Assembly: GCF_020991085.1 (NCBI RefSeq)
Contig: NZ_CP087719.1
Location: 1 to 64,000, forward strand
From: Roseomonas sp. OT10
GTDB taxonomy: Bacteria > Pseudomonadota > Alphaproteobacteria > Acetobacterales > Acetobacteraceae
Direction of reading: 5' to 3'
DNA: 64,000 nucleotides
The notes beneath the pieces are model-generated. The model worked only from the letters and a program-made list of their open reading frames with translations, searched no databases and had not been told where the DNA came from. Shown here piece by piece: positions 18,341 to 55,142 of this stretch; positions within the stretch are counted from its first letter, which is position 1, and each line of letters begins with the position of its first letter. The position numbers were made by a program, and so were the translations under genes.

Positions 18341-18579
18341 TGATGTCGAAGCTCAAGCTGGGGCCGATCGCCGACCAGAAGCCGATCAAGGTTCAGGTAG
18401 AGCTGCCGGCGGCTCTCCACCAAGACCTTTCTGATTACGCGGATTTGTTGGGACGCGAACAAGGCCTGCCTGCTGTCGAGCCCGCGCGGTTGATCGTACC
18501 GATGCTGCAGCGGTTCATCGCAACCGATCGAGGTTTCTCGAAGGCTAGGCGTACGAAGACCCAGAACGCCTCCGATTAG
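18340..18579 (+). CDS. DUF2274 domain protein
   Basis: A 79-residue protein of the DUF2274 family, regularly the last gene of trb operons of this type. KLGPIADQKPIKVQVELPAA and then HQDLSDYADLLGREQG look like a ribbon-helix-helix beta-helix start, so DNA binding is plausible. The start overlaps the trbI stop by 1 bp. The stop overlaps the convergent lysR stop by 4 bp. Confidence 0.85.
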   Translation: MMSKLKLGPIADQKPIKVQVELPAALHQDLSDYADLLGREQGLPAVEPARLIVPMLQRFIATDRGFSKARRTKTQNASD

Positions 18580-19478
18580 CTGGCGCTGCTCTGCTTGAAG
18601 GCTGGCAGGACATCGAAGCACTTCAGCAGCAGCGGCAGAGCCGGATTGTCGTTATCGCTCGACGAAATCATAGCCGCCGTCGGCGCGCGCGCTGGTGTGA
18701 GCGGAACCAATGCAATATCGGGCCGATGCACGACGCTCGTTATCGTCAGCCCGAAGCCTTGCTCGACCATGGTCAGAAGTGTTTCCCTGCTGACCTGCTG
18801 GATAGATAGTTGGATCGCCTCTTCGGCAGCGCCCAGCATCCGCCGGAGAATAGCTGCGAGTTCGCGCCCGGCACCATCTGAGCGGACAAGAAAGACTTCG
18901 TCGCAAATGTCCTCCCAGGCGAGCCGCGGTCGCGACGCGAGTTGGTGTATGGGTGATAGGGCAACGAAGAGGTCGGGTTCGCACAACCGTCGAATCTGAA
19001 ACGGAGGTCCCTTCGTTGCGCCCAGGCTGATCGCCGCGTCTAGCAGCCCGCGCTCCACGCCGAGGGTGTTCTGCTCTGACGTGCCTTCTTCGAGCTTCAC
19101 CTCGATCGTCGGGTATCGCTGTCTAAAGGTCGCCAAGAGGTCGATTATGGGACATGCCGGAAACGCCTCGAGCATCCCGAACCTGACTAGTCCAGTCGTA
19201 GGTTTACGGACCGATCGCATCTCAGTGGCGGCCTCGCGAAGATACCTCGCTCCGACCGCAGCTTGCTGCAGAAATCGCTCTCCTTCCGGCGTCAATCCAG
19301 CGCCCGATCGCGTGCGTTTGAACAGGGAAACGCCAAGCTGCCGTTCGAGCATCTGAACGCGGCGGCTGACCGTTGATTGCGATATCGAAAGGCGGTCCGC
19401 CGCCCTGCGGAAACTACCCGCTTCGGCGACATGGATAGCATACTTAAGGTATCGAAGATCGAGCGTCAGATCAGGCAT
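18576..19478 (-). CDS. LysR-family regulator adjoining the trb operon
   Basis: A 300-residue LysR regulator. The winged HTH is clear in LRYLKYAIHVAEAGSFRRAA and LSISQSTVSRRVQMLERQLG; a substrate-binding domain of about 210 residues follows. ATG 19478 is chosen because GGGGA lies 9 bp before it; an in-frame ATG at 19487 has no spacing. LysR genes at this spot are common in trb elements and may control transfer, but the divergent marR gene is an equally likely target. The effector is unknown. Confidence 0.9.
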   Translation of the reverse strand: MPDLTLDLRYLKYAIHVAEAGSFRRAADRLSISQSTVSRRVQMLERQLGVSLFKRTRSGAGLTPEGERFLQQAAVGARYLREAATEMRSVRKPTTGLVRFGMLEAFPACPIIDLLATFRQRYPTIEVKLEEGTSEQNTLGVERGLLDAAISLGATKGPPFQIRRLCEPDLFVALSPIHQLASRPRLAWEDICDEVFLVRSDGAGRELAAILRRMLGAAEEAIQLSIQQVSRETLLTMVEQGFGLTITSVVHRPDIALVPLTPARAPTAAMISSSDNDNPALPLLLKCFDVLPAFKQSSAS

Positions 19479-19627
19479 GACGCGCATTCCCCGTTCCCGG
19501 CTTCCGTTCACACGAGCAGCGCGCGACGCTCCAAAGCCTTTGCTGGAGGCCCCGCTTTTCGATCTCAGATGGGGAATCCAAGCCGAGCCCATCAGTGAGC
19601 ATGACCATCTCCGAATCCGTGATAGAT

Positions 19628-19679
19628 GTATGCGCCGGTCATACATATTCGGGCGCTTGATGTCTATGCGTGACGCATA
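19628..19679. promoter_or_regulatory. Operator pair upstream of marR1 (TATGCG-N3-CGCATA family)
   Basis: A perfect 15-bp palindrome TATGCG-TGA-CGCATA lies at 19665-19679, 12 bp before the marR1 start. A second, weaker dyad GTATG-CGCCGGT-CATAC lies at 19628-19644. The same palindrome recurs at 22748, 24310 and 31237, with degenerate copies at 25390 and 31197. It is probably an autorepression operator for the MarR proteins encoded here. Confidence 0.75.
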
Positions 19680-19691
19680 TATTCTTTCCGG

Positions 19692-20225
19692 ATGGAGCCC
19701 GAGGCCGCCAAATATCATTTTGGTGCACTTGCGCTCGCGGTAGCTGACAGCATCGCGAGCGCATCAGCCTCGCTTTCGCCGAGCGGCCCCGCGGCTGCAT
19801 TGATGGTTTTCCTTAGCTTCGAGCCGGGATTGCCTATCAGTGTCCTTGCGAGCCGGATCCGGCTTTCGCATGCGGGAACGGTCCGATTGATCGATAGGCT
19901 CGAATCCGATCACCTGGTGGAAAGGCGGCGACACACGGCGGACAAGAGGGCGCGCTTTATCCACTTGACCAATGCAGGTGTGAAAATGACCGGCGCTCTG
20001 CTCAGAGCGCGCGAACAAGTGATTGCAGCGTGTGTCTCGCCGCTGTCGCCGGCTGACCTGAACAAACTAGGCCGATTGTCCCAGCGGCTCCTTATCGCAA
20101 ACGGTTACGAGAAATCTGGTGTCGAGACTATGTGGCCCGTGGTTGGCTACCCGGGACAGACACCGGCTGAAAATCCATCTCAGCCCTCCCGCCAGCTGCG
20201 CCGGCGCCCTTCGCACAAGGGCTGA
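19692..20225 (+). CDS. MarR-family regulator (copy 1)
   Basis: A 177-residue winged-helix MarR protein. The recognition region reads LPISVLASRIRLSHAGTVRLIDRLESDHLVERRRH, seen at about 50-85, then an arginine-rich wing. It resembles the two other MarR proteins in the window but lacks their C-terminal cysteine cluster and ends in a Pro/Arg-rich tail. An operator palindrome lies 12 bp before its start. The next gene, a sulfur transporter, follows within 18 bp and is likely co-transcribed. Confidence 0.88.
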   Translation: MEPEAAKYHFGALALAVADSIASASASLSPSGPAAALMVFLSFEPGLPISVLASRIRLSHAGTVRLIDRLESDHLVERRRHTADKRARFIHLTNAGVKMTGALLRAREQVIAACVSPLSPADLNKLGRLSQRLLIANGYEKSGVETMWPVVGYPGQTPAENPSQPSRQLRRRPSHKG

Positions 20226-20243
20226 TGAGAAACCGAGGCAGGC

Positions 20244-21221
20244 TTGATATCTTTGGCATCGATCGCGTTCGACTTTCTCATATGCATACTGGCCTTCTGG
20301 TTCGGGTATTCTGCGAACCGAGGCGGCACGTGCTTGGTCGTAGCGGCTCATGAGTTGCAGCAACGGCGCCGACCAAGAATGTTCGTTGGATTTGTTGCGG
20401 CGTCTGCGGCTGCTGGCCTTATTGCGATACCGCTCGCCTGGTCGGGGACGCTGAACGCGACCCTCCCACTCTCGACGAGCGTCAACGGCCTCGTCATCAT
20501 CGGCGCCATCGCCTTCGGCCTCGGCGCGCTCATAAATGACACCTGCCTGCTAGGTTCACTGGCACGGTTAGGGGATGGAGAGATGCGGTTGCTCGCCCTT
20601 CCTGCCGGACTGGCAATCGGCATCTTGGCCGCTGATCTCGGCCGGTTTGGCCCCGTCGCGACATGGCCAAGTTTTATCGCTAGGCCGAGTGTCCCAGGGG
20701 GCGCGACGCTTCTCGCCTTAGGCGTGGTGCTCGGGCTAGCGGCGATTTTCGTGTCACGGAAGACCGCACCGCAAAGAAGGCAGAACTGGGCGTTTGGCGC
20801 TTCAATGATTGGCCTCGGTATGACTGGTGGGCTTCTCTACGCTCTTTCACCAGCATGGACATTCGCTGACCTCATCCAACGCGGCCTTCCTCTTCGAATG
20901 TCGCCGACAGGCGAGGTCGCACTGGTTGCGGTCATTGCCTCTGTTGCGGGAGCAATCACGGCATCCGTGCGTCAGGGTCGCTTGCGTTTCCAGCGACCGA
21001 CGCTCGCCGGCATCCTGCGGTCGATCGCCGGCGGCGCGTTGATGGGAATAGGCATCGGCCTGATACCCGGTGGCAACGACGCTTTAATCCTTGCCGCAAT
21101 GCCTACGCTTTCTCCGGGTGGCATTGTCGCCTACCTCGTGATGACGACCACGATCGTTTTTGGATTCGAAGCGCGTGACAGACTGGCCAGGAGCGGCGCG
21201 TCAGGCCAGGGGAAAAAGTAG
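20244..21221 (+). CDS. YeeE/YedE family sulfur (thiosulfate) transporter
   Basis: A 325-residue polytopic membrane protein of the YeeE/YedE family, with about nine hydrophobic segments. The two pore motifs are visible: RGGTCLVVAA near residue 28 and ALINDTCLLGSLARLGDGEM near 95-115, each with the conserved cysteine. GLIPGGNDALIL closes the set. Family members import thiosulfate or related sulfur species. The start is a TTG with GAGG upstream, since no ATG or GTG fits the frame. It follows marR1 and overlaps the convergent DUF6314 gene by 21 bp. Confidence 0.85.
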   Translation: MISLASIAFDFLICILAFWFGYSANRGGTCLVVAAHELQQRRRPRMFVGFVAASAAAGLIAIPLAWSGTLNATLPLSTSVNGLVIIGAIAFGLGALINDTCLLGSLARLGDGEMRLLALPAGLAIGILAADLGRFGPVATWPSFIARPSVPGGATLLALGVVLGLAAIFVSRKTAPQRRQNWAFGASMIGLGMTGGLLYALSPAWTFADLIQRGLPLRMSPTGEVALVAVIASVAGAITASVRQGRLRFQRPTLAGILRSIAGGALMGIGIGLIPGGNDALILAAMPTLSPGGIVAYLVMTTTIVFGFEARDRLARSGASGQGKK

Positions 21222-21680
21222 ACGGTCCGGCGTCGTTCGTGACACCTTTGAGTACCGGCTCCGCAGGTCGTACGCCTTTCGTGGACCAATGACCCTGATA
21301 ACTGTCTCGAAAGATCCTGCGTCGAGAATTCGGTAAAAAGCGTGATAGGCGTCGTCACCGCAGACGTGGGTGTCTGTTGCCTCGTACCCCCTATTCTTGC
21401 GCGAGAATTCAAGGTTGAGAAACAGCTTCCCGGTGTTCGGTCCGTCTGCGAACTGAACGTCTACTCGGTGGCCGACCGCGCAGTACCGATATTGCCGAGA
21501 CGCTGAGAGTTCGCGGCCATCCCGAAGCCGAAGTATCCCGCTTTCTCGATAGGTGAGCGCGGATTCACCTGTCGAAGCGAAATCCGCGTCGCCAATCAGT
21601 TGTTCGCCCGTCGGATCGACGTTGCGACGAAGCGCCCACTCTCCACGGAGCGTGTCCAAGACCATCGTGCCTATGCTCAC
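21201..21680 (-). CDS. DUF6314 family protein
   Basis: A 159-residue soluble protein matching the DUF6314 pattern. An opening LRGEWALRRNV is followed by ADFASTGESALTYRESGILRLRDG (about 31-54), RQYRYCAVGHRVDVQFADGP, and CGDDAYHAFYRI. It ends with VIRVIGPRKAYDLRSRYSK. This looks like a small lipocalin-like beta barrel. The function is unknown. It overlaps the upstream RclC-like gene by 4 bp, so the two are co-translated. Confidence 0.75.
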   Translation of the reverse strand: MSIGTMVLDTLRGEWALRRNVDPTGEQLIGDADFASTGESALTYRESGILRLRDGRELSASRQYRYCAVGHRVDVQFADGPNTGKLFLNLEFSRKNRGYEATDTHVCGDDAYHAFYRILDAGSFETVIRVIGPRKAYDLRSRYSKVSRTTPDRLLFPLA

Positions 21681-22183
21681 GACCGATCGGTGGTCATCGG
21701 CCCCAGGCGCTCATTTTTGGGTTGGACCGACGCAAGCAGCAGCACAAGTGATGCCGCCAGCAAGACTGCGTCCTTCAGCAGAAACTGGCCAGGAGCGGCA
21801 GATATCGCAGGAAAGCCTCCGGCGGTCGGCTCCCCGACCCCAGGCGTCGTAAAAAAGAAGGTTAGGGTGATGAAGTAGGTCGCCGCCGACATGAGCGCGC
21901 CAAGCGCTGAGAAGGATGCGCGGAAAGCCCCTAAGGCCAGCACGACTGCGGTCGACAGCTCGATGACGCCGACAAAGTAACTTTGGCCCTGTACCCCGAA
22001 CATACCCAGCCAACTCATGATCGGACTATGGCCGATGAAGGGGGCGATGCCATCGGCCTCGTAGGCCGTGAATTTCATCGCGCCGAACCAAGAGAAAACG
22101 ATCACGAGCGCCCATCTCAACAGCGCCAGTTCCTTCCGACTGCGCTCGGGCACAAGCAATTCATACCGATCGAAAATACTCAT
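21677..22183 (-). CDS. DUF417/RclC-like membrane protein
   Basis: A 168-residue membrane protein of the DUF417 (YkgB/RclC) family. Four hydrophobic helices are present, with hallmark FSWFGAMKFTAYEADGIAPF and HSPIMSWLGMFGVQG. In E. coli RclC belongs to the reactive-chlorine resistance operon, and other members relate to DoxX quinone-linked proteins. Here it sits between a MarR gene and DUF6314 in a minus-strand operon. A role in oxidant or hypochlorite resistance is inferred from family and context. Confidence 0.82.
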   Translation of the reverse strand: MSIFDRYELLVPERSRKELALLRWALVIVFSWFGAMKFTAYEADGIAPFIGHSPIMSWLGMFGVQGQSYFVGVIELSTAVVLALGAFRASFSALGALMSAATYFITLTFFFTTPGVGEPTAGGFPAISAAPGQFLLKDAVLLAASLVLLLASVQPKNERLGPMTTDRS

Positions 22184-22218
22184 ATCGAACTCCTCAAAAG
22201 GGGATGATCGTCAGGGCG

Positions 22219-22728
22219 TCACGGACGATGGTGGCCGACTGGGCAATCGGTACAGCGGGCCTGATCGCACAGACGACAGGTTGCCAAGCCGCCGTGGGGG
22301 TCCGAGAACAGCGACGACAGGATGTTGTCCGCGGCCCGCTCCAGCACGACGCGATCGTCAGCCGACACTTTGCTCAGCAGCTCGGACACCGCCGCGTTCC
22401 GCAGACCTAGCAGCTTGGCCCGCTCCACCTGACCACGCGAGGTCAGCGAGACATGAACTACCCGGCGGTCAGAGGGCGATGGCGATTTCGCCACCAGGCC
22501 TTGCTCGCCTAGCCTCTCGACGACGCGAACTGCACCTGCATGCGAAAGCCGGAGAGTTTGCCGTACCTGGCCGATCGACATTCCTGGCGCGTGACCGATC
22601 GCGATCAAAGCCGCGGCCGTCTCGCCCCCCGCATTGAATGCTTCAGCGATCGCCAAGCGCACGCGGTCAGACACCGCTTGAGACAGCGCGCCAAAGATGT
22701 TGATCAAGCGATCCGAGGGGTCATCCAT
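22219..22728 (-). CDS. MarR-family regulator with C-terminal Cys cluster (copy 2)
   Basis: A 169-residue MarR regulator. The HTH lies in MSIGQVRQTLRLSHAGAVRV and the wing in KSPSPSDRRVVHVSLTSRGQ. The C terminus ends CRLCDQARCTDCP, four cysteines as CxxC-N4-CxxC, which could bind zinc or act as a thiol switch. The related copy 3 keeps the same tail (CRLCCYEGCTNCP). A perfect operator palindrome lies 19 bp before the start, so autorepression is likely. It heads a minus-strand run with the RclC-like and DUF6314 genes. Confidence 0.9.
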   Translation of the reverse strand: MDDPSDRLINIFGALSQAVSDRVRLAIAEAFNAGGETAAALIAIGHAPGMSIGQVRQTLRLSHAGAVRVVERLGEQGLVAKSPSPSDRRVVHVSLTSRGQVERAKLLGLRNAAVSELLSKVSADDRVVLERAADNILSSLFSDPHGGLATCRLCDQARCTDCPVGHHRP

Positions 22729-22747
22729 CGCCGCGACTCACGCAATA

Positions 22748-22762
22748 TATGCGTCGCGCATA
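22748..22762. promoter_or_regulatory. Operator palindrome upstream of marR2
   Basis: TATGCG-TCG-CGCATA is a perfect 15-bp palindrome 19 bp before the marR2 start, inside an AT-rich context (ATATATGCG...GCATACAATAT). It is identical in the half-sites to the sites at 19665, 24310 and 31237. Confidence 0.8.
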
Positions 22763-22820
22763 CAATATCTGTGGGCCGGTGTCGAGCCTCGTGCCGGAGT
22801 ACAAGCGTTCGCTGGAAGGC

Positions 22821-23117
22821 TTAGACGTCGTCGGTGCCTACCGGCCCACCTTCGCCCTCCATCCGATTGATCGCACGCACATCCTTGGCGTTGAACTTGA
22901 GCCTCACGCCGAGCCCTCCACTATTGTCCTCGCCGATGAAGACCGCGCCGCCGCGTTCGAGCGCGTCCCGCAGCCGCGTCAGATCCGAGGCTGCAAACAC
23001 GCTGGCGCCGGCTTCGAATTGAGCTAGCGCCTCTTCCTCCAAGCCTGCGATCTTGGCGACATGTGATCGCGGCCACTGAATGAGCGCTCTCGCTGCACGT
23101 GCTAGTGGCCCATTCAT
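22821..23117 (-). CDS. XRE-like small regulator
   Basis: A 98-residue protein starting MNGPLARAARALIQWPRSHV. It matches a widespread alphaproteobacterial XRE-like family: an N-terminal HTH, then LRDALERGGAVFIGEDNSGG and GLGVRLKF. The canonical second and third HTH helices are eroded here (AKIAGLEEEALAQFEAGASV), so DNA binding may be altered. It has the same architecture as the XRE gene at 59757. It lies 66 bp downstream of the GAPDH gene on the same strand. Confidence 0.7.
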   Translation of the reverse strand: MNGPLARAARALIQWPRSHVAKIAGLEEEALAQFEAGASVFAASDLTRLRDALERGGAVFIGEDNSGGLGVRLKFNAKDVRAINRMEGEGGPVGTDDV

Positions 23118-23183
23118 GTTCAATGCCTCCGTTTCGCGAACGCATCTTGTCGCCAAGATCCGACTTTTCCCGCAACCGATCCG

Positions 23184-24191
23184 CTAGATGAGCTTCGCCA
23201 TCACCACGGCGACATCCGCCATGCGTGTCGCAAAGCTCCACTCGTTGTCGTACCAAGCAAGCACGCGAACCATCCGGCCATCGACGACATCGGTCTGGGG
23301 TAGCGCGACGATCGAGGATTCGGTCCGGTGGGTCAGATCCACAGACACCAATGGCTCTGTCGTGTAAGCGAGCACCCCACTCATAGGACCACTCGCAGCC
23401 TGACGAATGGCGTCGTTCACTTCGTCGATCGTGACCTCCCGGGATGCGGAAATAGCGAGATCGACGACCGATACGTTCGGCGTTGGCACGCGGATTGACG
23501 AGCCATGGAGCTTGCCTTTCAGTTCTGGCAGCACGCGTCCGATTGCGTTCGCGGCTCCGGTCGAGGTTGGGATCATCGACAGCGCGGCTGCCCGTGCGCG
23601 GTAGAGATCCTTATGCACCGTATCTAGCGTCGGTTGGTCACCGGTATAGGCGTGAACCGTGGTCATGTAGCCCCGCTCAATGCCACATAGATCGTTCAGG
23701 ATCTTCGCGACGGGGGCGAGGACATTCGTGGTGCATGAGCCATTCGATACGACGACATCATCGGTTGTCAGCGTTTCGTGATTGACCTTGAAGACGATCG
23801 TCTTGTCTGCCCCCTCGCTGGGCGCGGAGACGAGCACGCGCTTTGCTCCCGCACGGATGTGCGATTCAGCCTTCTCCCTGGAGGTAAACAGACCTGTGCA
23901 TTCGAGCGCTACGTCCACTCCAAGCTCATCATGCGGAAGCTTTGATGGATCGCGCTCTGAAGATACTTGGATTTTACCAGACCCGACGTCGATCCAGTCT
24001 TCGCCGGTGGCTATTGATCCTTGAAAGGGGCCGTGAACTGAATCGTATTTCAGGAGGTGCGCCAACGTAGCAACCGGCCCGAGGTCGTTGATCGCAACCA
24101 CCTCGATGTCCTCACGCCGTAGTTCGACGATCGACCTTAAAGCTAGTCGTCCGATCCGACCGAAACCGTTGATTGCGACCTTGACCGTCAT
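23184..24191 (-). CDS. gap: Type I glyceraldehyde-3-phosphate dehydrogenase
   Basis: A complete 335-residue GAPDH. The Rossmann start VKVAINGFGRIGRLALRS and catalytic SNGSCTTNVLAPVAKI with Cys153 are present, as is the C-terminal WYDNEWSFATRMADVA. It oxidises glyceraldehyde-3-phosphate to 1,3-bisphosphoglycerate with NAD(P). Housekeeping GAPDH is a classic target of H2O2 and HOCl, so a mobile spare copy beside redox genes may restore flux during stress. A MarR-type operator lies 119 bp upstream of its start. Confidence 0.95.
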   Translation of the reverse strand: MTVKVAINGFGRIGRLALRSIVELRREDIEVVAINDLGPVATLAHLLKYDSVHGPFQGSIATGEDWIDVGSGKIQVSSERDPSKLPHDELGVDVALECTGLFTSREKAESHIRAGAKRVLVSAPSEGADKTIVFKVNHETLTTDDVVVSNGSCTTNVLAPVAKILNDLCGIERGYMTTVHAYTGDQPTLDTVHKDLYRARAAALSMIPTSTGAANAIGRVLPELKGKLHGSSIRVPTPNVSVVDLAISASREVTIDEVNDAIRQAASGPMSGVLAYTTEPLVSVDLTHRTESSIVALPQTDVVDGRMVRVLAWYDNEWSFATRMADVAVVMAKLI

Positions 24192-24309
24192 GCCTGTGTC
24201 CCCTGGTTCGCCGAGATAGTTACGGCATATGCACTTCGCTCAGTGCCGACTGGCACCCGGAGGTGCACTCCGGCAGCGAAAGCTTGCCGATCAGACCATC
24301 CGCATTATG

Positions 24310-24324
24310 TATGCGTCACGCATA
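24310..24324. promoter_or_regulatory. Operator palindrome between gap and rpiA
   Basis: TATGCG-TCA-CGCATA is a perfect palindrome midway in the 258-bp divergent spacer, 118 bp from the gap start and 125 bp from the rpiA start. It belongs to the same family as the MarR operators, so one regulator could control both sugar-phosphate genes. No other strong signal was seen in this spacer. Confidence 0.7.
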
Positions 24325-24449
24325 GACCTATCCGTCTGCAGGCTGTAGGTCAACGAGGCAATGTCGGCATCGAGGATCAGATTTGCGCTGCCCAGTTTCA
24401 CAATCGACCTGGTGAAGGCACGCATACCGGCGAGATGAAGTGGCGTTAG

Positions 24450-25151
24450 ATGTTTTCCCAAGAAGCAGAGAAGAGGCTGGCTGCGGCCAGAGCAGTCGAC
24501 GAGATCGAAGATGGCATGTTCGTTGGCCTTGGGACCGGAAGCACAACAGCCTATGCCATTAAGAGCCTGAGCGACCGCATTCGGCAGGGCCTTCGCATCA
24601 CCGCTGTCGCCACCTCCCGAGCGACCGAAATGTTCGCTCGTCGTCTCGCGGTGCCGCTCGTTCCTTTTGAGCAGTTCAGTTCGGTAGACCTCACGATCGA
24701 CGGCGCTGACGAGATCGACTGCCACTTTCAGGCGATCAAAGGCGGCGGCGGCGCCTTGCTCCGAGAGAAGGTCGTGGCCGCCGCTTCTAGCCGGATGATC
24801 GTGATCGTAGACGCTAGCAAAGTCGTTCGACGACTCGGCGAGTTTCCTCTGCCGGTCGAAGTCGTGCCCTTCGCGAGCGAGTTCGTTCGAACGCATCTTG
24901 CCAAGCTCGGAGCCAGTGTGACGCTTCGCTCGGTCGGCGGAGAACCATTCATCACAGACCAGAGCAATCACATCTTGGATGCAGCCTTCGGCAAGGCCCT
25001 TCGGCCGATCGAGATCGCCGGAGCGATCGATGCCATCCCCGGCGTCATGGAGCACGGCTTGTTTCTTAGCGAGATTGACACTGTGGTGGTCGGACGCGGT
25101 GAGACGGTCGAGGTGCATCTCAGAAAGCAAGCCCCCGGATCCCTCCGTTAG
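24450..25151 (+). CDS. rpiA: Ribose-5-phosphate isomerase A
   Basis: A 233-residue RpiA. The conserved GLGTGSTTAYAIKSLSDRI, TIDGADEIDCHFQAIKGGGG and ALLREKVVAAAS blocks are intact. The C-terminal part (about 185-205) carries PIEIAGAIDAIPGVMEHGLF. It interconverts ribose- and ribulose-5-phosphate in the pentose phosphate pathway. With gap it would move carbon between glycolysis and the NADPH-yielding pathway. The chosen ATG is the usual family start; the spacer upstream holds a shared operator. Confidence 0.94.
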   Translation: MFSQEAEKRLAAARAVDEIEDGMFVGLGTGSTTAYAIKSLSDRIRQGLRITAVATSRATEMFARRLAVPLVPFEQFSSVDLTIDGADEIDCHFQAIKGGGGALLREKVVAAASSRMIVIVDASKVVRRLGEFPLPVEVVPFASEFVRTHLAKLGASVTLRSVGGEPFITDQSNHILDAAFGKALRPIEIAGAIDAIPGVMEHGLFLSEIDTVVVGRGETVEVHLRKQAPGSLR

Positions 25152-25217
25152 GTGCCGACGAGGGGTGGCACCTGGCGCAGGCGTGATGTGATTCGGCCGT
25201 CAGGCAGCCGAAATCAC
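25150..25217 (+). terminator. Two hairpins after rpiA
   Basis: A 7-bp stem AGGTGCC/GGCACCT (25150-25173) starts on the rpiA stop codon. A second stem GTGATTCGGC/GCCGAAATCAC with one bulged base lies at 25188-25217. Neither has a long T tail, so factor-independent termination is only possible, not certain. The remaining spacer up to 25389 shows no gene. Confidence 0.45.
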
Positions 25218-25389
25218 GACAGCCCACCCCGATCCATAGCCGCCAGGTATCGCCATTTTGTGTGACCCGACGATCGAAGTCCTGTATTTCAATCTTCCGC
25301 GCCATCCGCAGCGTATCCTAAACCACTGTAAAGGCGCGCCTTTCGGTTTGCCACAATCCCCCAGCGCCGCAGGGGTATGGCTTGCTGTC

Positions 25390-25406
25390 TATGCTTCGCG
25401 CACATA
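25390..25406. promoter_or_regulatory. Orphaned operator of the disrupted marR3 gene
   Basis: TATGC-TTCGCGC-ACATA is a degenerate copy of the MarR operator, 11 bp before the original marR3 ATG at 25418. The IS66 insertion now separates it from nearly all of the gene it would have controlled. Confidence 0.55.
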
Positions 25407-25417
25407 TAGATGGGGCA

Positions 25418-25428
25418 ATGGATGGACC
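25418..25428 (+). pseudogene. 5-prime fragment of split marR3
   Basis: ATG GAT GGA CC is the original start of the third marR gene, up to the IS66 insertion point. Joining it in frame to the sequence after 27914 gives MDGPRDRNIFGAFALMISDD, which aligns with the MarR copy 2 N terminus MDDPSDRLINIFGALSQAVS. The last 8 bases, GATGGACC, are the target duplication. Confidence 0.8.
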
Positions 25429-25513
25429 GTAAGCGTGGCCACGAGGCCCGTCTTCCGGCGCGGTTGGTGGATGTGCTGGGTCGGCTTGGAGCAGGGAGCT
25501 TCGGGCCGACATT

Positions 25514-25924
25514 ATGGTCGACATTAGTGGTGACGCGAAGGACGGCGGATATCGGCGTGTCGAGGTTCTGACCGGACCTGGCCGTCGGCGGAAGTGGTCG
25601 GACGACGACAAGGCACGGATCGTAGCGGAGACGCTGCGGCCCGGCACGGTGGTGGCCGAGGTGGCACGACGCTGGCAGGTCAGTTCGCAGCAGGTGTTCA
25701 CGTGGCGGCGGGAGATGCGGCGTGCTGCGGTGGCGCCGCTGAGCTTTGTGCCGATCGTGCCGGCGCCGTCGATGCCTGTGCCCGAGCCGACAACAGTCTC
25801 GTCGGCAGGTTCCTCGCCACCGATCGAGGTGGAACTGGCGGGAGCGGTGCTGCACGTGGTGCCTGGCACAGATGTGGACCTGCTGACGATGGTGCTGCGG
25901 GCGATCCGGACATCGGCGGCATGA
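25514..25924 (+). CDS. tnpA: IS66 accessory protein TnpA
   Basis: A 136-residue HTH protein of the IS66 TnpA (IS3/IS911 transposase-like) type. It contains RRRKWSDDDKARIVAETLRP and AEVARRWQVSSQQVFTWRRE. IS66 transposition requires it together with TnpB and TnpC. The stop overlaps the tnpB start by 4 bp. Confidence 0.9.
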   Translation: MVDISGDAKDGGYRRVEVLTGPGRRRKWSDDDKARIVAETLRPGTVVAEVARRWQVSSQQVFTWRREMRRAAVAPLSFVPIVPAPSMPVPEPTTVSSAGSSPPIEVELAGAVLHVVPGTDVDLLTMVLRAIRTSAA

Positions 25925-26277
25925 TCGCGCCCCCGGCTGGCGCGCGGATCCTGCTGGCGACGAAGCCGGTCGACTTCCGCAAGGGCGCGCACAGCCTGGC
26001 GGCGCTGGCCGCCGAGGTGCTGGGCGCAGATCCGTTCTCCGGGGCGGTGCTGGTGTTCCGTTCGCGCCGTGCCGACCGGATCAAGATCCTCCTCTGGGAC
26101 GGCGGCGGCCTGGTCCTGGTCTGGAAGCAATTGGAGGGAGGCGCGTTCCGCTGGCCGCCGGTGGTGGACGGCGTGCTGCGTCTGACGCCGGTGGAGTTCG
26201 CCGCGCTGTTCGACGGGATCGATTGGCGGCGCGTGCAAACGCTGCGGGAGATTCCCACGCCGAGCGCGCCGGCATAG
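25921..26277 (+). CDS. tnpB: IS66 accessory protein TnpB (Orf2)
   Basis: A 118-residue IS66 Orf2-like protein. Diagnostic blocks are ILLATKPVDFRKGAHSLAAL, FRSRRADRIKILLWDGGGLV and KQLEGGAFRWP. The ATG overlaps the tnpA stop; upstream in-frame residues belong to a shadow of tnpA. Confidence 0.93.
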   Translation: MIAPPAGARILLATKPVDFRKGAHSLAALAAEVLGADPFSGAVLVFRSRRADRIKILLWDGGGLVLVWKQLEGGAFRWPPVVDGVLRLTPVEFAALFDGIDWRRVQTLREIPTPSAPA

Positions 26278-26290
26278 AATCCGCGGCACG

Positions 26291-27865
26291 ATGCGCGCCG
26301 CGGGAGACGACAGGCCGACACTGCCGGAGGACCCCGCAGCCCTGCGCGCGCTTCTGCTCGAGACGCTGGTCGAGGTCGACACGCTGGTCGCCGAGCGTGA
26401 TGCGCTGACGGCGCAGAACGAGCGCCTCCAGCACCTGCTGCTGAAGCTGAAGCGCCGGCAGTTCGGGCAGAAATCCGAGAGGCTCCCCGAGGAGCAACTG
26501 CTGTTCGCCTTCGAGGAGATCGAGGCGACGCTGGCCGGGAACGCGGCCGAGGCCGGCAAGGCCTCTCCGGCGCTGCGCGACCAGCACAAGAAGCGCCGCC
26601 GGGCAGGCCGGGGCCGACTGCCGGCGCACCTGCCGCGCATCGAGCAGGTGCTGGCGCCCGAGGCGACGGTGTGCCCCTGCTGCCAGGGCCCGCTGGTCGA
26701 GATCGGCACCGATGCCGCCGAGCGGCTCGACGTGATCCCGGCGCGGTTCCGCGTCCTCGTCACGAAGCGGCCGAAGCTGGCCTGCCGGGCCTGCGCCGGC
26801 GTGGTGCTGCAGGCGCCCGCGCCGGCCCGCCTGATCGAGGGCGGGGTGCCGACCGAGGCAACGGTCGCCCACGTGCTGGTCTCTCGCTACGCCGACCATC
26901 TGCCCCTTTACCGCCAGGCGCAGATCCTGGCGCGGCAGGGGATCGAGATCGGCCGCGAGGTGCTGGCCGACTGGACCGGCACGGGGGCGCTGGAGATCAT
27001 CCCGGTGGTCCGGCGCATGCGGGAGATCCTGCTGGCCTCCTCGCGGCTGTTCGCCGACGAGACCACGATGCCGGTCCTCGACCCTGGACGTGGCAAGACC
27101 AAGAAGGGCTATGCCTGGGCGATCGCGCGCGACGACCGGCCCTGGGGCGGGACGGACCCGCCGGCGGTGGTGTTCCACTACGCGCCGGGCCGCGGCGCCG
27201 AGCACGCGAAGGCACTGCTGGGCGGCTATCGCGGCATCCTCCAGTGCGACGGCTACGGCGCTTACAAGACGCTCGCCGCGGCGAGCGAGGGCATCACGCT
27301 GGCATTCTGCTGGTCGCACCTGCGCCGGCAGTTCATCGAGCTAGCCAAGGGCAAGACCGCGCCGATCGCCACCGAGACGCTGCAGAGGATTGCCGCCCTC
27401 TACGCGGTCGAGGCGGAACTGCGCGGCAAGCCGCCCGACATCCGCCGCGCCGTCCGCCAGGAACGAAGCCGCCCCCTTGTCGAGGACCTGTTCGCCTGGT
27501 TCTCGGCGCACCTCGCGCGGCTGCCGGGCAGCAGTCCGACGGCAGAGGCCATCCGCTACGCGCTGAACCATCGCGACGGCCTGATGCGGGTCCTCAAGGA
27601 CGGTCGGATCGAGCTGGACACGAACACGGTGGAGCGCGCCATCCGACCGATCTGCCTCAGCCGCAAGAATGCGCTCTTTGCCTCCGGCGACGATGGCGGG
27701 GCCAGATGGGCGGCCGTGGCCTCGTTGGTGGAGACCTGCAAGCTCAACAGCGTCGACCCGCAGCGCTACCTCACCACAGTGCTGACGCGCCTGGTCAACG
27801 GCTGGCCCAACAGCCGCATCGACGAGCTCATGCCATGGCACTGCGCGGCCGACGAAAACAGCTGA
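26291..27865 (+). CDS. tnpC: IS66 transposase TnpC
   Basis: A 524-residue IS66 DDE transposase. An N-terminal coiled coil (VDTLVAERDALTAQNERLQH) is followed by a zinc-binding stretch CPCCQGPLVE...CRACAG. The catalytic domain has RLFADETTMPVLDPGRGKTK, ILQCDGYGAYKTL and the C-terminal NTVERAIRPICLSRKNALFA. It appears intact and potentially active. Confidence 0.95.
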   Translation: MRAAGDDRPTLPEDPAALRALLLETLVEVDTLVAERDALTAQNERLQHLLLKLKRRQFGQKSERLPEEQLLFAFEEIEATLAGNAAEAGKASPALRDQHKKRRRAGRGRLPAHLPRIEQVLAPEATVCPCCQGPLVEIGTDAAERLDVIPARFRVLVTKRPKLACRACAGVVLQAPAPARLIEGGVPTEATVAHVLVSRYADHLPLYRQAQILARQGIEIGREVLADWTGTGALEIIPVVRRMREILLASSRLFADETTMPVLDPGRGKTKKGYAWAIARDDRPWGGTDPPAVVFHYAPGRGAEHAKALLGGYRGILQCDGYGAYKTLAAASEGITLAFCWSHLRRQFIELAKGKTAPIATETLQRIAALYAVEAELRGKPPDIRRAVRQERSRPLVEDLFAWFSAHLARLPGSSPTAEAIRYALNHRDGLMRVLKDGRIELDTNTVERAIRPICLSRKNALFASGDDGGARWAAVASLVETCKLNSVDPQRYLTTVLTRLVNGWPNSRIDELMPWHCAADENS

Positions 27866-27906
27866 CGATCAAGCAAAGGCCGCAAGGGTCCGTAGACCTC
27901 GCTTAC

Positions 27907-28443
27907 GATGGACCTCGAGATCGAAATATCTTTGGGGCGTTCGCACTCATGATCAGCGACGACATCGTTCGCGCTAGTTCATCGCGGGCGCCAGAAGCTG
28001 GACCCGCCGCCTCGGCGCTTGCGTTGATTGCCCATAAGCCAGGGCTATCGATCCGCATGCTGTCAGTTGGGGTGGGACTTTCCCATGCCGCGACCGTCCG
28101 CTTGGTGGACCGTTTGTCGACGGAGGGATTGGTCGAGCGGCGTGAGCATTCGACTGACGGGCGCACGCGGTCCCTCCATCTTACAGAGGCTGGCAAGGTC
28201 GCGAGCGATGCGGTCTTGGCGTCGCGCGACAAGGTGATCGCTGAGGGACTATCGATCCTCACCCCTACCGAGTTGGACGCCCTTTACAGCATTGCTGAAC
28301 GCGTGCTGCGCGACCGCTTGGAAAACCTCGAGCATTCCTACCGCATCTGCCGTTTGTGCTGTTACGAGGGCTGCACGAATTGCCCGATCGATGCCGAATT
28401 GCACGAGCGCGGGGTAGATCGCGAGAACGGCGGCGAGGCTTAG
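27907..28443 (+). pseudogene. MarR-family regulator copy 3, 5-prime end cut off by IS66
   Basis: The frame open from the IS66 right end encodes nearly all of a MarR protein. The HTH reads LSIRMLSVGVGLSHAATVRL, the wing has EHSTDGRTRSLHLTEAG, and the tail CRLCCYEGCTNCP holds the same cysteine cluster as copy 2. The native start and operator lie left of the IS. Expression could restart at ATG 27949, losing 15 residues, or come from an IS-borne promoter. It is probably inactive or misregulated, but not proven so. Confidence 0.85.
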
Positions 28444-28463
28444 GGCTCCGGAATTCGCAGGTT

Positions 28464-29225
28464 TCAGTGTTGAGCGATGAGATACGCCGCCAGGAACCCC
28501 ACGACCGTGATCAGACCTATGAACGGCGGCGCCTTCTCGAAAGCCTCGGGGATCATGGCCTCCGCCAGCATCGCTATGACCGCGCCAGCTGCGAACGACA
28601 GAATGGCAGGGGCTTGAGTGGACGCCGAGCCGAGCAGAAGGTTTCCCGTACCGGCGGCGATGCAAACAAGTAGCGGAATACCGATCCAGACCGCGTAGAT
28701 ATAGCTTCGCGATCGGCCCGCGACCTTCATTCCGGAAGTGCTCGATAGACCCTGTGGCACATTAGCCAAAAAGAAGCCTGCCACTACTGCAAGGCTGATC
28801 TTGCCTCCGCCAGCCACGGACATCCCAATCACGAGGGCCTCTGGAATGCCGTCGAGAACGCTGCCGAGCGCAATCGCAGCACCGCTGCCGCGGTGCTCCT
28901 GTTCAGTGGCCTGCTCGGTGCATTCACCGCATCGCTTTCGATGCTTCGCGCCCCGCCGAGAGAGAAACCAGTTTGTGCCGCTGAAGATTGCGGCCCCTGC
29001 GAGCAGCGCAAAGATCGCCAAGGGTCCCATGCCAGCCGACACGCGATCACCTATGAGTTCGGTAGCGACCACGGCAATCAACACACCACCACCGAAGCCC
29101 ATCACCGCTGAGATCATGCGGTGAGTGAGTCGCCCGTACAGCACGTCCGCAAGTACCGCCCCCACCAGAAGTCCGCTTCCTGACAAAAGCCCCCACAAGC
29201 CGGCGATTGCGTATTCGGGTATCAT
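28464..29225 (-). CDS. ZIP-family metal transporter
   Basis: A 253-residue polytopic protein of the ZIP family. The metal-site helix GSVLDGIPEALVIGMSVAGG matches the HxxxE-type signature with substitutions (Asp-Gly-Ile-Pro-Glu). Seven or so hydrophobic helices surround a charged loop, RRGAKHRKRCGECTEQ, that could bind metal. It probably moves zinc, manganese or iron. It is the third gene of a minus-strand run after the OsmC-hydrolase and msrA genes. Confidence 0.82.
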   Translation of the reverse strand: MIPEYAIAGLWGLLSGSGLLVGAVLADVLYGRLTHRMISAVMGFGGGVLIAVVATELIGDRVSAGMGPLAIFALLAGAAIFSGTNWFLSRRGAKHRKRCGECTEQATEQEHRGSGAAIALGSVLDGIPEALVIGMSVAGGGKISLAVVAGFFLANVPQGLSSTSGMKVAGRSRSYIYAVWIGIPLLVCIAAGTGNLLLGSASTQAPAILSFAAGAVIAMLAEAMIPEAFEKAPPFIGLITVVGFLAAYLIAQH

Positions 29226-29301
29226 CGCAAGAACCCGGCTGACCTAGCGACGCGGGGCGAGCGCCATCGCGTGCGTATCGTTGATGACCGTCCCTGCGTG
29301 C

Positions 29302-29838
29302 TCATCGTTTCGCTCGGTCCAGTCGCCAGGCCGGTCGCTCGAAGTGGCAGCTATAGCCGCCGGGTCGACGCTGGAGGTACTGCTGATGCTCTGGCTCGGC
29401 CTCCCAGAACGGCTCTTCCGGGTTGATCTCTGACACGACAGGTCCCGGCCAGCGACCCGACGCTTCGATCTCGGCGATTGTCTCCAGAGCAACGTCCATC
29501 TGCTTTTCGGACGTGTAGAAAATCGCGGACCGATAGCTTGGTCCGACGTCGCTACCTTGTTGCTCGTATGTCGTCGGATCGTGGATTTGGAAGAAGAGTT
29601 CCAGGAGAGCACGATACGTCAGTATCGAAGGATCAAACGTGACCTCCACCGCTTCCGCATGACCATGGTGTCTCGTGTAAGTCGGGTCCGGCAGTTCGCC
29701 GCCGATGTAGCCCACACGCGTCGTCACGACGCCCTTCGCGCGGCGAAGTAAATCTTCGAGGCCCCAAAAACATCCACCCGCAAGTATCGCTCGCTCGGTT
29801 CGTGTCGGCGTTTGGTCAGTAGTGGGCAGACTCTGCAT
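29302..29838 (-). CDS. msrA: Peptide methionine sulfoxide reductase MsrA (copy 1)
   Basis: A 178-residue MsrA. The catalytic motif [20 protein letters not shown] holds Cys23, followed by [15 protein letters not shown] and the [18 protein letters not shown] block. [20 protein letters not shown] ends the fold, with a possible resolving Cys. It reduces the S-epimer of methionine sulfoxide. ATG 29838 is chosen; an earlier frame adds arginine-rich residues unlike the family. It is 28 bp downstream of the OsmC fusion gene. Confidence 0.94.
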
Positions 29839-29866
29839 CCGATCAACCTCCGCTATGTGCACCACA

Positions 29867-31093
29867 TCAGATCGCCGGCGCCGCACCTGCAGGCTGCGCA
29901 TTGTTCGAAAGTTGGGTCTGCACATCCGAGCCTCGGACGAGTGTCAGGTCGACCGGACACCGATCCGCGATTTCCAGTATGCGCGCCCGCTGTTCATCGT
30001 TGAGCGGCCCGTCGAGAAAGACGGTGCGCGTGAAGCGGTCGGGAGGCACCATGTCCGCCACTTTCTCGTGTCGCACGGTCGTCGTCGCTCGCTCCAGCGG
30101 AAAGCCTTTGCGGTTCGCGTAAAGACGCATTGTCATCACCGTGCAGGCGGCCAGTCCGGCCGACACCAGTTCGTAAGGAGACAGCCCGCTGCCGAGACCT
30201 CCGACCGATTCTGGTTCATCGGCGAACAGCGTGTGCCCGCCACTACGGACCGTGAGTTGGAACTTCCCCGCCAACGTTTCCGACGCCACGACTCCATTCG
30301 CTAACTCGACTTGTGGAAGGTCCGCCGCGAGCGGCGGCAGGAAGCGGCTTGCCCACGCTGCGACCATAGCTGAGACGTAATTCGCATCTTCGACATCGGT
30401 GAGAAGGTGATCGGCCGTGTCGAGCGAAACAAAGCTCTTGGGATGGCGCGACGCGACGAAGATGCGCGAGGCGTGCTCGATACCCACGACTTGATCCACC
30501 GGTGAATGCATCACAAGCACCGGACGTCGAAGGGCAGCGATAGACCTCTCGATGTCCACTTCGTCGACCGTTTCCAGGAAACTGCGGCGGATCAGGAAGG
30601 GCCTGCCAGCAATCTCCACAGATGCCTCGCCCTCGCTCGCTATCGCGTCTAGGTCGGCAGGTTGAAAGACGCGCAATATATGCTGAAGGTCAGCCGGGGC
30701 GCCGATCGTCACTACCGCCGCGATATCCGGCAAGTCGGCGGCGGCTACGATCGCAGCCGTGCCACCCAGGCTGTGTCCGACAAGGAGGGAGGGCGCCTTA
30801 CCGGCGACAGCCATGGCCTCCGCGGCGGCCTTAAGATCATCGACGTCGGAAGCGAAGCTTATCGCCTCATCCGCAGAACTCTCGATCCCTGTGCCGGCGA
30901 AGTCGAACCGCAAGACGCCGATGCCAGCCCGCGAGAGGGCGCGTGCGATGTACACGGCGGCGCGGCTGTCTTTCCCGCAAGTGAAGCAATGGGCGAAAAT
31001 AGCCCAGCCGCGAGGCGTACCTTCGGGCGCCTCCAAATACCCGGTTAGATCAGAGCCTCCACCACCGGGAAACGTGAACGGTGTTCCTGTCAT
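29867..31093 (-). CDS. Alpha/beta hydrolase fused to OsmC domain
   Basis: A 408-residue two-domain protein. The N-terminal hydrolase (about 1-255) has the elbow [12 protein letters not shown], acid region [18 protein letters not shown] and a histidine in [10 protein letters not shown]. The C-terminal OsmC domain (about 265-400) has [20 protein letters not shown], whose cysteine is the peroxidatic-type residue, and [12 protein letters not shown]. OsmC/Ohr proteins reduce organic hydroperoxides. The fusion is known in proteobacteria; its substrate is not. Two operator sites lie upstream of its start. Confidence 0.9.
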
Positions 31094-31196
31094 AAGCGTC
31101 GAGCCTCCCACGGCGACTTAGTGGGTGCACCGGAACCCTTGGGCCCTGGCGGAAGCGCCATCAGGCCCGGACTAGCCGTCCAAGACATTCTTTTTA

Positions 31197-31251
31197 TATG
31201 CGTGGTGCATATAGACAAGCCCCTAAAGCGTGATTATATGCGTCGCGCATA
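31197..31251. promoter_or_regulatory. Tandem operators between the OsmC fusion and lysR2
   Basis: Two copies of the MarR operator lie 40 bp apart. The first is TATGCG-TGG-TGCATA at 31197-31211, one mismatch in the right half. The second is TATGCG-TCG-CGCATA at 31237-31251, perfect. The 40-bp spacing, close to four helical turns, puts them on one DNA face. They probably control the minus-strand OsmC-msrA-ZIP run, the divergent lysR2, or both. Confidence 0.75.
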
Positions 31252-31319: not shown

Positions 31320-32195
31320 ATGGAACTCAATCAGGTCAGCTATTTCATCAACTTGGCCGAGACGCTGAATTTTACAGCAGCGGCGCGGTTGAGCGGTGTG
31401 TCCCAGCCAAGTCTGACACGCGCGATCCGCCGCTTGGAGGAAGAACTCGGCGGTCCGCTCATTTATCGCGATGGGAAGAACAGCCGTCTCACCGGCCTTG
31501 GCCAGGACGTGGAGGCTGAGTTTCGGCGCATGTTAGTCGCGATGAAAAGTGTTCGGCATCATTCTGAGAACTGGGCCATGGGAAGGCACCGGGTCTTGGA
31601 CGTAGCCGTCGCTCCGACCGTCGGGCCGAAGCTTTTCACGACTTTTTTCGAGAGCGCGTTGGCCGAGGTGCCATCGATCGAGATCAAGATGCATTCGCTT
31701 GGGGCGAGTGAAGACACATCGGAGGTGCTGTCGGGCAAGTATCACGCATGCATCCTGCCACGCGAGACGCGGCCGGACCGCAAGCTTGATGTGCGACCTC
31801 TGTTCCGCGAGCGCTTCGTGCTCGGCTGTTCCGCAAAGCACCCGCTCGCGGCGAGCGATATCGTGCGCGGCGAGGACCTGTTGGAGTTCCCGTTCGTCGA
31901 TCGTCTGAAGTGTGAGTTTCGCGAGCAGATCCTAGACCATTTCGCACGACGGGAGGTGCTGATGCGACCGCGCTTCCGGTCCGATCGTGACGATTGGGTG
32001 CAACGGGTCGTCGCCGAAGGCGAGGCCATATGCATCCTTCCGGAGCGGTCGGCTACAGCCCAAGGTCTGGTTACCCGCCCTATCGACGGGTTCGTCCTCG
32101 AACGAGAGGTCGTGATCGCGACGGTCTCCGGCTCCACGGTGCCGGTTGAGATCCGAAAGATCGCGCAGCTGGCGGCCAGATACGCGTGGAACTGA
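31320..32195 (+). CDS. LysR-family regulator (copy 2)
   Basis: A 291-residue LysR regulator. It begins MELNQVSYFINLAETLNFTA with the HTH in RLSGVSQPSLTRAIRRLEEE. The effector domain is full length. It has few cysteines (one in FVLGCSAKH, one in RLKCEFREQ, and others in ACILP and AICILP), so OxyR-like disulfide sensing cannot be asserted. It lies directly upstream of msrB-msrA on the same strand, separated by a hairpin and a 29-bp element. Confidence 0.9.
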   Translation: MELNQVSYFINLAETLNFTAAARLSGVSQPSLTRAIRRLEEELGGPLIYRDGKNSRLTGLGQDVEAEFRRMLVAMKSVRHHSENWAMGRHRVLDVAVAPTVGPKLFTTFFESALAEVPSIEIKMHSLGASEDTSEVLSGKYHACILPRETRPDRKLDVRPLFRERFVLGCSAKHPLAASDIVRGEDLLEFPFVDRLKCEFREQILDHFARREVLMRPRFRSDRDDWVQRVVAEGEAICILPERSATAQGLVTRPIDGFVLEREVVIATVSGSTVPVEIRKIAQLAARYAWN

Positions 32196-32341: not shown

Positions 32342-32785
32342 ATGAAGTTTGAAAAGTCTCAGGCAGCGATCGACCGCCTGACCCCCGAGCAACGCCGGAT
32401 CACTCAGGAAGACGGCACGGAGCGGGCCTTCACCGGTGAATACAACGACAACAAGGAACCGGGCATCTACGTCGATGTCGTGTCCGGCGAGCCGCTTTTC
32501 GCATCGACGGACAAGTTCGAGTCGAAATCCGGCTGGCCCAGCTTCACCAAGCCTATCGTCCCCGCGCACGTGAACGAGGTGCGGGACAGTTCTCACGGCA
32601 TGGTCCGGACGGAAGTTCGATCGGTCCATGGCGACAGCCATCTCGGCCACGTGTTCCCCGACGGTCCGGCCGACCGTGGCGGACTGCGGTATTGCATCAA
32701 CTCGGCCGCCCTTCGCTTCATCCCGCGCGATGAGATGGAAGCCGAGGGCTACGGCGAGTATCTCGATCAGGTGGAGGAGGCGTAA
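32342..32785 (+). CDS. msrB: Peptide methionine sulfoxide reductase MsrB
   Basis: A 147-residue Msr[15 protein letters not shown], then [20 protein letters not shown], hold the active site, with catalytic Cys118 in [11 protein letters not shown]. The two CxxC zinc pairs of many MsrBs are absent ([15 protein letters not shown] instead), so this is the zinc-free type. It reduces the R-epimer of methionine sulfoxide. The gene overlaps none but is 1 bp from msrA copy 2, forming a msrBA operon that covers both epimers. Confidence 0.95.
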
Positions 32786-32786
32786 C

Positions 32787-33326
32787 ATGCATCAGCGCGC
32801 TGTTCTCGCAGGCGGATGTTTTTGGGGCATGCAGGATCTGATCCGCAAGCAGCCCGGCATCGTGTCGACCCGCGTCGGATACACCGGTGGCGACGTCCCG
32901 AACGCCACCTATCGCAATCACGGCACTCACGCTGAAGGGATCGAGATCATTTTCGACCCGGCAGCGACAAGCTACCGCAACATCCTCGAATACTTCTTCC
33001 AGATCCACGACCCGACGACGAAAGATCGGCAAGGCAACGATCGCGGCCTCTCCTATCGATCAGGCATCTACTATGTCGACGAGGAGCAGAAACGGGTCGC
33101 CGAGGAGACGATCGCCGACGTCGACGCCTCCGGACTGTGGGACGGAAAAGTCGTCACCGAAGTCGAGCCCGTCGGCGATTTCTGGGAAGCGGAGCCGGAG
33201 CACCAAGACTATCTCGAGAAGCGCCCGGGCGGTTACACGTGCCATTTCCCGCGCGCGAATTGGGTGCTCCCCAAGCGTGACGACGCTGGTGCTACCCAGC
33301 CTACCACCGGAGCGGCAGCTGAATAG
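32787..33326 (+). CDS. msrA: Peptide methionine sulfoxide reductase MsrA (copy 2)
   Basis: A 179-residue MsrA. Catalytic Cys11 lies in [40 protein letters not shown] and [20 protein letters not shown] follow. It is about 50-55 percent identical by eye to copy 1, so it is a paralogue rather than a recent duplicate. It starts one base after the msrB stop with GGAGGAGG upstream and must be co-translated. Confidence 0.95.
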
Positions 33327-50761: not shown

Positions 50762-51256
50762 ATGACAAACTCCAGTGCTGCAACCGTGCCTTCACCATCT
50801 GACCTCGACGAGAACGCGACCATGACGGTCGCGGATGCGTTGAAGATCATTTTGGCGAACAGCTATGCGGTCTACCTCAAGACCAAGAACTTTCACTGGC
50901 ATGTCTCGGGCCCGTACTTCAGGGACTACCATCTCCTTCTCGATGAGCAAGCTGCGGAAATCCTCGCAGCGACCGATGCGATGGCGGAGCGCGCCCGGAA
51001 GACCGGAAATACGACCATACGATCGATCGGCGATATCGCCAGCCACCAGACGATCAAGGACAACGACGCTGAGTTCGTCACGCCGCAGGACATGCTGGCG
51101 GAGCTGCGCGCCGATAATCTTCACATGGTCGAGTCGCTGCGCCGCGCAAAGGAAGTCGCCGACGAGGCGAAGGACAACGCGACCTCCGGCCTGATCGATA
51201 CCTGGACCGACGAAGCGGAACGCCGAGCGTGGTTCCTTTTCGAAGTCAGCCGATAG
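50762..51256 (+). CDS. dps: Dps-family ferritin-like DNA protection protein
   Basis: A 164-residue Dps. The ferroxidase region KTKNFHWHVSGPYFRDYHLL and DEQAAEILAATDAMAERARK holds the shared His, Asp and Glu metal ligands. A 20-residue flexible N terminus could bind DNA. It stores iron and consumes H2O2 to protect DNA. The 29-bp element lies in its promoter. Confidence 0.94.
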   Translation: MTNSSAATVPSPSDLDENATMTVADALKIILANSYAVYLKTKNFHWHVSGPYFRDYHLLLDEQAAEILAATDAMAERARKTGNTTIRSIGDIASHQTIKDNDAEFVTPQDMLAELRADNLHMVESLRRAKEVADEAKDNATSGLIDTWTDEAERRAWFLFEVSR

Positions 51257-51285
51257 GTCTGCTGCTCAACGGATCGGATCGTTTC

Positions 51286-52140: not shown

Positions 52141-52142
52141 GT

Positions 52143-54975: not shown

Positions 54976-55101
54976 AAGGATAGCGTTCTGATAGGCTCTC
55001 TCAGCTTCTCACGAACCAATCAAGCTTCTGAAATTACTCAACTAATGTTCTCGCGGCTTCTCGCAGACCCTTTTAGCTTCCCGCCATCTTGCTACCTTGG
55101 T

Positions 55102-55124: not shown

Positions 55125-55142
55125 AGCGCGGGGTACGGGGCG

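Follow-up and report, generated by a model that had tools for sequence, protein, structure and literature searches.

Introduction

Several of the described systems closest to the locus reported here respond to reactive chlorine, and the DUF417 relatives RclC and RcrB both take part in such responses (PMC9600549). In uropathogenic Escherichia coli the repressor RcrR governs rcrARB, and with it the DUF417 gene rcrB; RcrR is inactivated by HOCl through cysteine oxidation, and loss of rcrB leaves E. coli CFT073 highly susceptible to HOCl (PMC9600549). The RclR regulon of E. coli (rclABC) responds to reactive chlorine and includes RclC (PMC9600549), and in Sinorhizobium meliloti the MarR-type repressor SydR is freed from operator DNA by NaOCl (PMC11633110). 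Here we describe an island of oxidant-defence genes among trb-type conjugative element genes of Roseomonas sp. OT10. It lies in the first 64 kb of contig C1 (the stretch of DNA that was analysed, hereafter the window) of a 5.69-Mb genome in 3 contigs, and it combines a DUF417 gene with three marR genes (marR1, marR2 and marR3) and repeated copies of one palindrome, TATGCG-N3-CGCATA.

The likeness to rcrARB lies in a predicted repressor over a DUF417 gene, but the direct targets of RcrR are given as rcrA, rcrR and rcrB and not as a spread of identical operators (PMC9600549). RclR differs in being a transcriptional activator (PMC9600549), and SydR in being OhrR-like, with a sensing C16 near the N-terminus that acts with C114 (PMC11633110), whereas the island MarRs display a C-terminal cysteine tetrad. 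The right part of the island has the gene order msrB-msrA-GST(yfcG)-corA found in the blaAFM platform ISCR27-msrB-msrA-yfcG-corA, but the excerpted source presents that platform as the mobile context of a resistance gene, with no operator or regulon (PMC9984417). No description of this operator or regulon was found among the literature matches listed, and none of the six 15-mer site sequences tested was found in the literature searched.

We propose that the cargo is a self-contained mobile regulon, in which MarR-type repressors would share one operator over the island's oxidant-defence genes and would be released by oxidants; judging from sequence, we put the probability of this reading at roughly 0.8. 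An initial annotation of the same DNA had suggested a single mobile regulon in which several MarR paralogues read one site. The conserved placement of the sites in related islands, the upstream regions of MarR relatives and a de novo palindrome scan lend support to that suggestion. New relative to it are the extended form of the consensus, the fit of a subset of sites into promoter spacers, the tetrad of cysteines and the occurrence in other taxa.

The palindrome is confined to the island

A scan of all 5,689,429 bases of the genome returned four exact copies of TATGCG-N3-CGCATA, all inside 11.6 kb of the window. Candidate operator 1 (19665–19679) lies upstream of marR1, candidate operator 2 (22748–22762) upstream of marR2-DUF417-DUF6314, a position retained in other islands, and candidate operator 3 (24310–24324) in the divergent gap/rpiA spacer. 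The fourth, 4b (31237–31251), shares the divergent OsmC/lysR2 spacer with a one-mismatch copy, 4a (31197–31211), 40 bp away, and the two are paired likewise in two other loci (L001 and L002). Degenerate copies with two mismatches stand 36 bp from operator 1 (19629–19643) and upstream of the likely original start of marR3 (25390–25404). These places are the ones expected if MarR dimers bind near their own promoters, and the palindromes are candidate operators. All positions and both spacers agree with the initial annotation save for one base (19629, there 19628), and the distances from palindrome to start, 12 bp for MarR1, 19 bp for MarR2 and 13 bp for the likely original start of MarR3, fall within the 11–19 bp that it had given. 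Three further two-mismatch matches in the window (23220, 30107 and 46313) were absent from it.

At up to one mismatch, five sites fall in the 11.6-kb stretch compared with three in the rest of the genome and one for a reversed-pattern control. At the outside rate, at least five sites in 11.6 kb would have a Poisson P of about 7e-14, a post hoc value because the stretch is itself delimited by the sites. Outside this stretch the genome thus hardly carries the motif; the initial annotation had named an equal frequency at random positions as grounds for refuting the regulon, and the outcome speaks in its favour. Two of the three off-island sites lie within long GC3-rich open reading frames (ORFs) and the third outside any ORF longer than about 130 aa; all three look like chance, and an off-island regulon in the same genome was rejected as a candidate. 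Allowing three mismatches gave no enrichment in the window (21 matches against a shuffle mean of 25.3), so the signal is restricted to near-perfect sites. The genome has 18 other MarR-like matches; of these, five loci were checked, and none carries the palindrome at up to two mismatches.

Palindromes precede many MarR relatives

Relatives of the island MarRs were taken from the best 80 of 266 loci of a genome scan, and were fetched by a peptide pattern that lies within the recognition helix. The upstream regions of 115 of 117 MarR ORFs were tested, leaving aside L056:30 (upstream too short) and a frame-broken piece in L016. Clustering at 70% identity gave 25 clusters, and clusters with a window gene were represented by the window copy, for which reason the window MarR3 is scored as a miss. 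The upstream palindrome was exact in eight clusters, had one mismatch in five and two mismatches in two, and was missing within two mismatches from ten. A palindrome with at most one mismatch therefore stands just upstream in 13 of the 25 clusters, against 0.27% of 7,500 control windows drawn from the same loci with other island sites included. The ten comprise the MarR3 of the window, which is split by an insertion sequence (IS), five with variant palindromes (L081, L084, L029, L078 and L021) and four with no clear upstream palindrome (L064, L053, L058 and L056), although in L058 an exact site lies farther off, about 670 bp upstream. The variants before MarR relatives that have no standard site read TGTGCG..CGCACA or TATGAn..nTCATA, with L026 intermediate.

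A de novo scan for palindromes with six-base half-sites and gaps of 0–8, run over the 22 clusters without window genes, placed the same palindrome at the top in several registers: TATATG-N7 and TGTATG-N7 (14 of 22) and ATATGC-N5 and TATGCG-N3 (11 of 22).

Consensus and promoter geometry

The 126 sites, 63 of them distinct, give the fuller operator consensus TNTATGCG-YSR-CGCATANA, that is, T-N-TATGCG-YSR-CGCATA-N-A. Among the distinct sites T occupies position −2 in 56 and A position +16 in 61, the orientation of each site being set by a promoter score of which the +16 base is part. When both sides are counted together, so that orientation plays no role, the outer T/A holds at 117 of 126 positions. 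The centre is mostly YSR. TTG stands 8 bp before the palindrome in 11 of the 63 distinct sites (shuffled mean 1.7, maximum 6 in 1,000), so that the palindrome fills the −35/−10 spacer there. The overlap is clearest at marR1, where operator 1 lies between TTGATG and TATTCT at 17-bp spacing, and the marR1 operators of both this island and a related Klebsiella island are accompanied by near-consensus promoter boxes.

The extended motif was found in 1 of 385 genomes of the class, the source genome itself, and in 2 of 398 of the phylum (the two draws overlap and the counts are not summed). The sole foreign genome of the 398, G783, carries it on another island with MarR3, DUF417, YeeE, OsmC and a piece of LysR2.

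Related islands and plasmids

The cargo stretch is common to other alphaproteobacteria and occurs in related form on Enterobacteriaceae plasmids. A megablast search with 15 kb of cargo matched 382 plasmid records, none covering more than 80% of it and the best covering 40% at 77.9%. Related plasmid-borne islands, one in Klebsiella (IncR/IncU) and one in Sphingomonas paucimobilis, have palindromes at matching places, including a one-mismatch operator at the Klebsiella marR1, and so do smaller MarR-DUF417 sets on plasmids of Sphingomonas sp. NIC1 and Rhizobium leguminosarum; two plasmids with a MarR relative (L004 and L005) have no clear palindrome at marR. All 15 loci with a gap homologue, many of them near-copies, have the palindrome, with one mismatch or none, in the 200 bp that precede gap. 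In L007–L013 and L016 the three marR genes are retained together with the marR1, marR2 and gap sites. No exact palindrome directly precedes marR3 in any compared island, and in some of them a TGTGCG half-site occupies its position. Cargo proteins of L007 and L008, from Roseomonas mucosa and Sandaracinobacter neustonicus, are listed as 100% identical to those of the window, a sign that distant alphaproteobacteria have exchanged the cargo recently.

Searching from the motif outward, in genomes other than that of L083, gave further exact sites. One, on the S. paucimobilis plasmid, precedes a separate DUF417 gene by about 160 bp, and another is at C33:43924 of G107. G102 has three additional places: a MarR2-DUF417 pair accompanies one of them, and another adjoins LysR2-MsrB-MsrA, with MarR3 in the vicinity.

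Three diverged MarR proteins and a cysteine tetrad

MarR1 (19692–20225, forward), MarR2 (22219–22728, reverse) and the body of MarR3 (27919–28443, forward) all score above the Pfam cut-off for the winged-helix MarR or MarR_2 domain, while NCBIfam models matched them below cut-off only. This sets them apart from RcrR, which is a TetR-type protein. MarR1 and MarR3 share 27% and 32% identity with MarR2. The fold that AlphaFold predicts for MarR2 is of the MarR type (mean pLDDT 88.3, with lower confidence in the tail), and Foldseek relates the model to solved MarR structures. The midpoint-rooted tree has a split (support 99/98) with MarR2 and 27 rows on one side and MarR1, MarR3 and 14 rows on the other; motif-bearing relatives fall on both sides of it, and MarR1 is a long branch of unsure placement.

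MarR2 has a CRLC-x4-C-x2-CP tail, and the pattern CR[LFYM]C-x4-C-x2-CP is present near the C-terminus in 105 of 117 MarR ORFs. The 12 without it are ten copies of MarR1, L056:30 and L064, which reaches a contig end. The two MarR alignments have no conserved N-terminal cysteine of the OhrR type; the conserved cysteines are C-terminal. In the window, marR3 is separated from its operator and first codons by an IS66-family element of 2,478 bp (25429–27906, forward) with an 8-bp target duplication, GATGGACC; the gene is uninterrupted in G004, of the same genus.

Proposed link to oxidant defence

A DUF417 gene and a candidate operator are present, and the gene may be under a chlorine-responsive regulator, the mark of Rcl/Rcr-type regulons. 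The match to RclC, the only NCBIfam model found for the protein at E 1e-5, is below cut-off (84.9 bits against 275). The island glyceraldehyde-3-phosphate dehydrogenase (GAPDH) reads CTTNV, the second active-site cysteine being missing, as do all 20 homologue matches (from 15 loci and five re-fetched stretches of G000 and G004), while the chromosomal GAPDH (G000:C1:270592) reads CTTNC. By its sequence the CTTNV form would fit an oxidant-tolerant spare enzyme. Taken together, the link of DUF417 proteins to chlorine, the release of SydR by NaOCl and the CTTNV GAPDH favour a thiol oxidant as the signal, with metals as the main rival.

Proposed circuit and alternative explanations

The palindrome recurs in front of the island's genes and, in other bacteria, next to genes of related repressors, so a private control circuit probably travels with the island. 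The palindrome would be the operator of a subfamily of MarR repressors, used alike by the diverged MarR1, MarR2 and MarR3, and a MarR dimer would occupy it, at some promoters exactly within the −35/−10 spacer. Bound there, the repressors would block their own genes as well as the DUF417/DUF6314 operon, the sulfur transporter, gap, rpiA, the OsmC-MsrA-ZIP operon and lysR2 with msrBA. Derepression would come from reactive chlorine, the most likely inducer, or another thiol-attacking oxidant, which would alter the C-terminal CRxC-x4-C-x2-CP tetrad and release the repressor, so that the island's repair set would be switched on together. MarR1, having no tetrad, may respond to a different signal or fix a basal level.

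Several observations weigh against this circuit. Ten of the 25 MarR clusters have no upstream palindrome within two mismatches, and the conservation of the recognition helix among the relatives is by construction, given the pattern used in fetching. In the evenly drawn genome sets, foreign matches to the extended motif number 0 (class) and 1 (phylum), against 2 genomes per set for its reversed control; the motif being no more frequent than chance, its meaning comes from its positions. The third additional exact site of G102 (C4, L115) and exact matches in four related genomes (L087, L090, L091 and L092) lie in fetched stretches, 3 kb for the latter four, that contain no gene of the family, and none of these four fits the YSR centre. 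TTG at −8 is absent from 52 of the 63 distinct sites, and paired sites lie 35–45 bp apart with no single fixed phase. MarR1 is without the tetrad cysteines, and the MarR3 of the window is cut from an operator that is itself degenerate.

These last two points, with the long branch of MarR1 and the want of an exact site directly before marR3 in the compared islands, suit a simpler arrangement in which MarR2 or MarR3 alone works through the sites and the others are decaying copies or serve other signals. We consider such an arrangement unlikely, though a serious contender: marR1 retains an operator that is exact here and has one mismatch in the Klebsiella island, with promoter boxes close to consensus in each case, and the three marR genes stay with the marR1, marR2 and gap sites in eight compared loci (L007–L013 and L016). 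Somewhat less probable again is a genuine regulon with a different signal, zinc or another metal or a sulfur species bound by the tetrad. A four-cysteine tail could hold metal, and ZIP-like, CorA-like and YeeE genes belong to the set, but MsrA, MsrB, OsmC, GST and an RclC-like protein stand out in it and metal regulons are usually without protein-repair genes.

Two site clusters are flanked by LysR genes, and LysR sites are often interrupted palindromes, so LysR1 or LysR2 might bind in place of the MarRs. This is very unlikely: the palindrome does not yield the T-N11-A of the LysR rule, the motif lies upstream of marR without an annotated LysR in L003, and in L054, L057, L060 and L067 it precedes marR in fetched stretches with no LysR1/2 homologue at E 1e-8. 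We give still less credence to the palindromes as a mobile or structural repeat that the element carries and that plays no part in regulation. That they are confined, within the genome, to the island would fit a repeat, but centres and flanks differ among sites, some lie in promoter spacers, and in unrelated taxa they are again found with marR genes.

A wider suggestion is put forward tentatively, at slightly under even odds. Proteins with CRxC-x4-C-x2-CP and the operator TNTATGCG-YSR-CGCATANA may form an undescribed class of oxidant-sensing MarRs spread across several phyla, and mobile elements may have stacked diverged paralogues on one operator to give a self-contained, transferable, multi-input chlorine-stress circuit. 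If so, a whole oxidant-defence programme would transfer with private regulation, in related form also on Enterobacteriaceae plasmids; the signature would identify further members, and the island would offer a simple system of several related repressors sharing one DNA site.

The element and its other genes

The cargo spans about 18.6 to 35.1 kb and is set among genes of a trb-type, perhaps Tn4371-like, conjugative element. Profile searches identified a RepA-like initiator (RPA), a T4SS-DNA_transf coupling protein, CagE_TrbE_VirB, TrbI and DUF2274, and a relaxase-like DUF3363 protein, which reached 24.4 bits with the Relaxase model, just under its 24.6 cut-off. A phage-type integrase lies at 55089–56453. 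With relaxase-like and coupling proteins, trb genes, RepA and integrase, the window has the components expected of such an element.

The cargo includes two LysR, three MarR, two MsrA, MsrB, GST and CorA-like proteins among others, some named from annotated homologues. LysR-type regulator 1 (18576–19479, reverse; Pfam, start picked by eye) opens it, and marR1 is followed by a YeeE/YedE-type sulfur transporter (20244–21221, forward; Pfam Sulf_transp). The DUF6314 protein (21201–21680, profile match) and the RclC-like DUF417 membrane protein (21677–22183) are both on the reverse strand, as is GAPDH (23184–24191); ribose-5-phosphate isomerase A (rpiA, profile match) is at 24450–25151, forward. Between marR2 and gap, at 22821–23156, a 111-aa ORF with no Pfam or NCBIfam match looks by eye like a small HTH protein. 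Beyond marR3 lie, on the reverse strand, a ZIP-like metal transporter (28464–29225), a weak assignment from a homologue annotated ZIP and a ZupT match below cut-off, with no Pfam match at E 0.001, followed by MsrA (29302–29835) and an alpha/beta-hydrolase-OsmC fusion (29867–31093), both profile matches. LysR-type regulator 2 (31320–32195; profile match, homologues annotated LysR), MsrB with the second MsrA (32342–33326) and a GST-like protein with a CorA-like transporter (33461–35130) are all on the forward strand, the last four named by homology to annotated proteins. Outside the operator-bearing stretch, at 50762–52628, the element also appears, by eye only, to encode a Dps-like and another MsrA-like protein.

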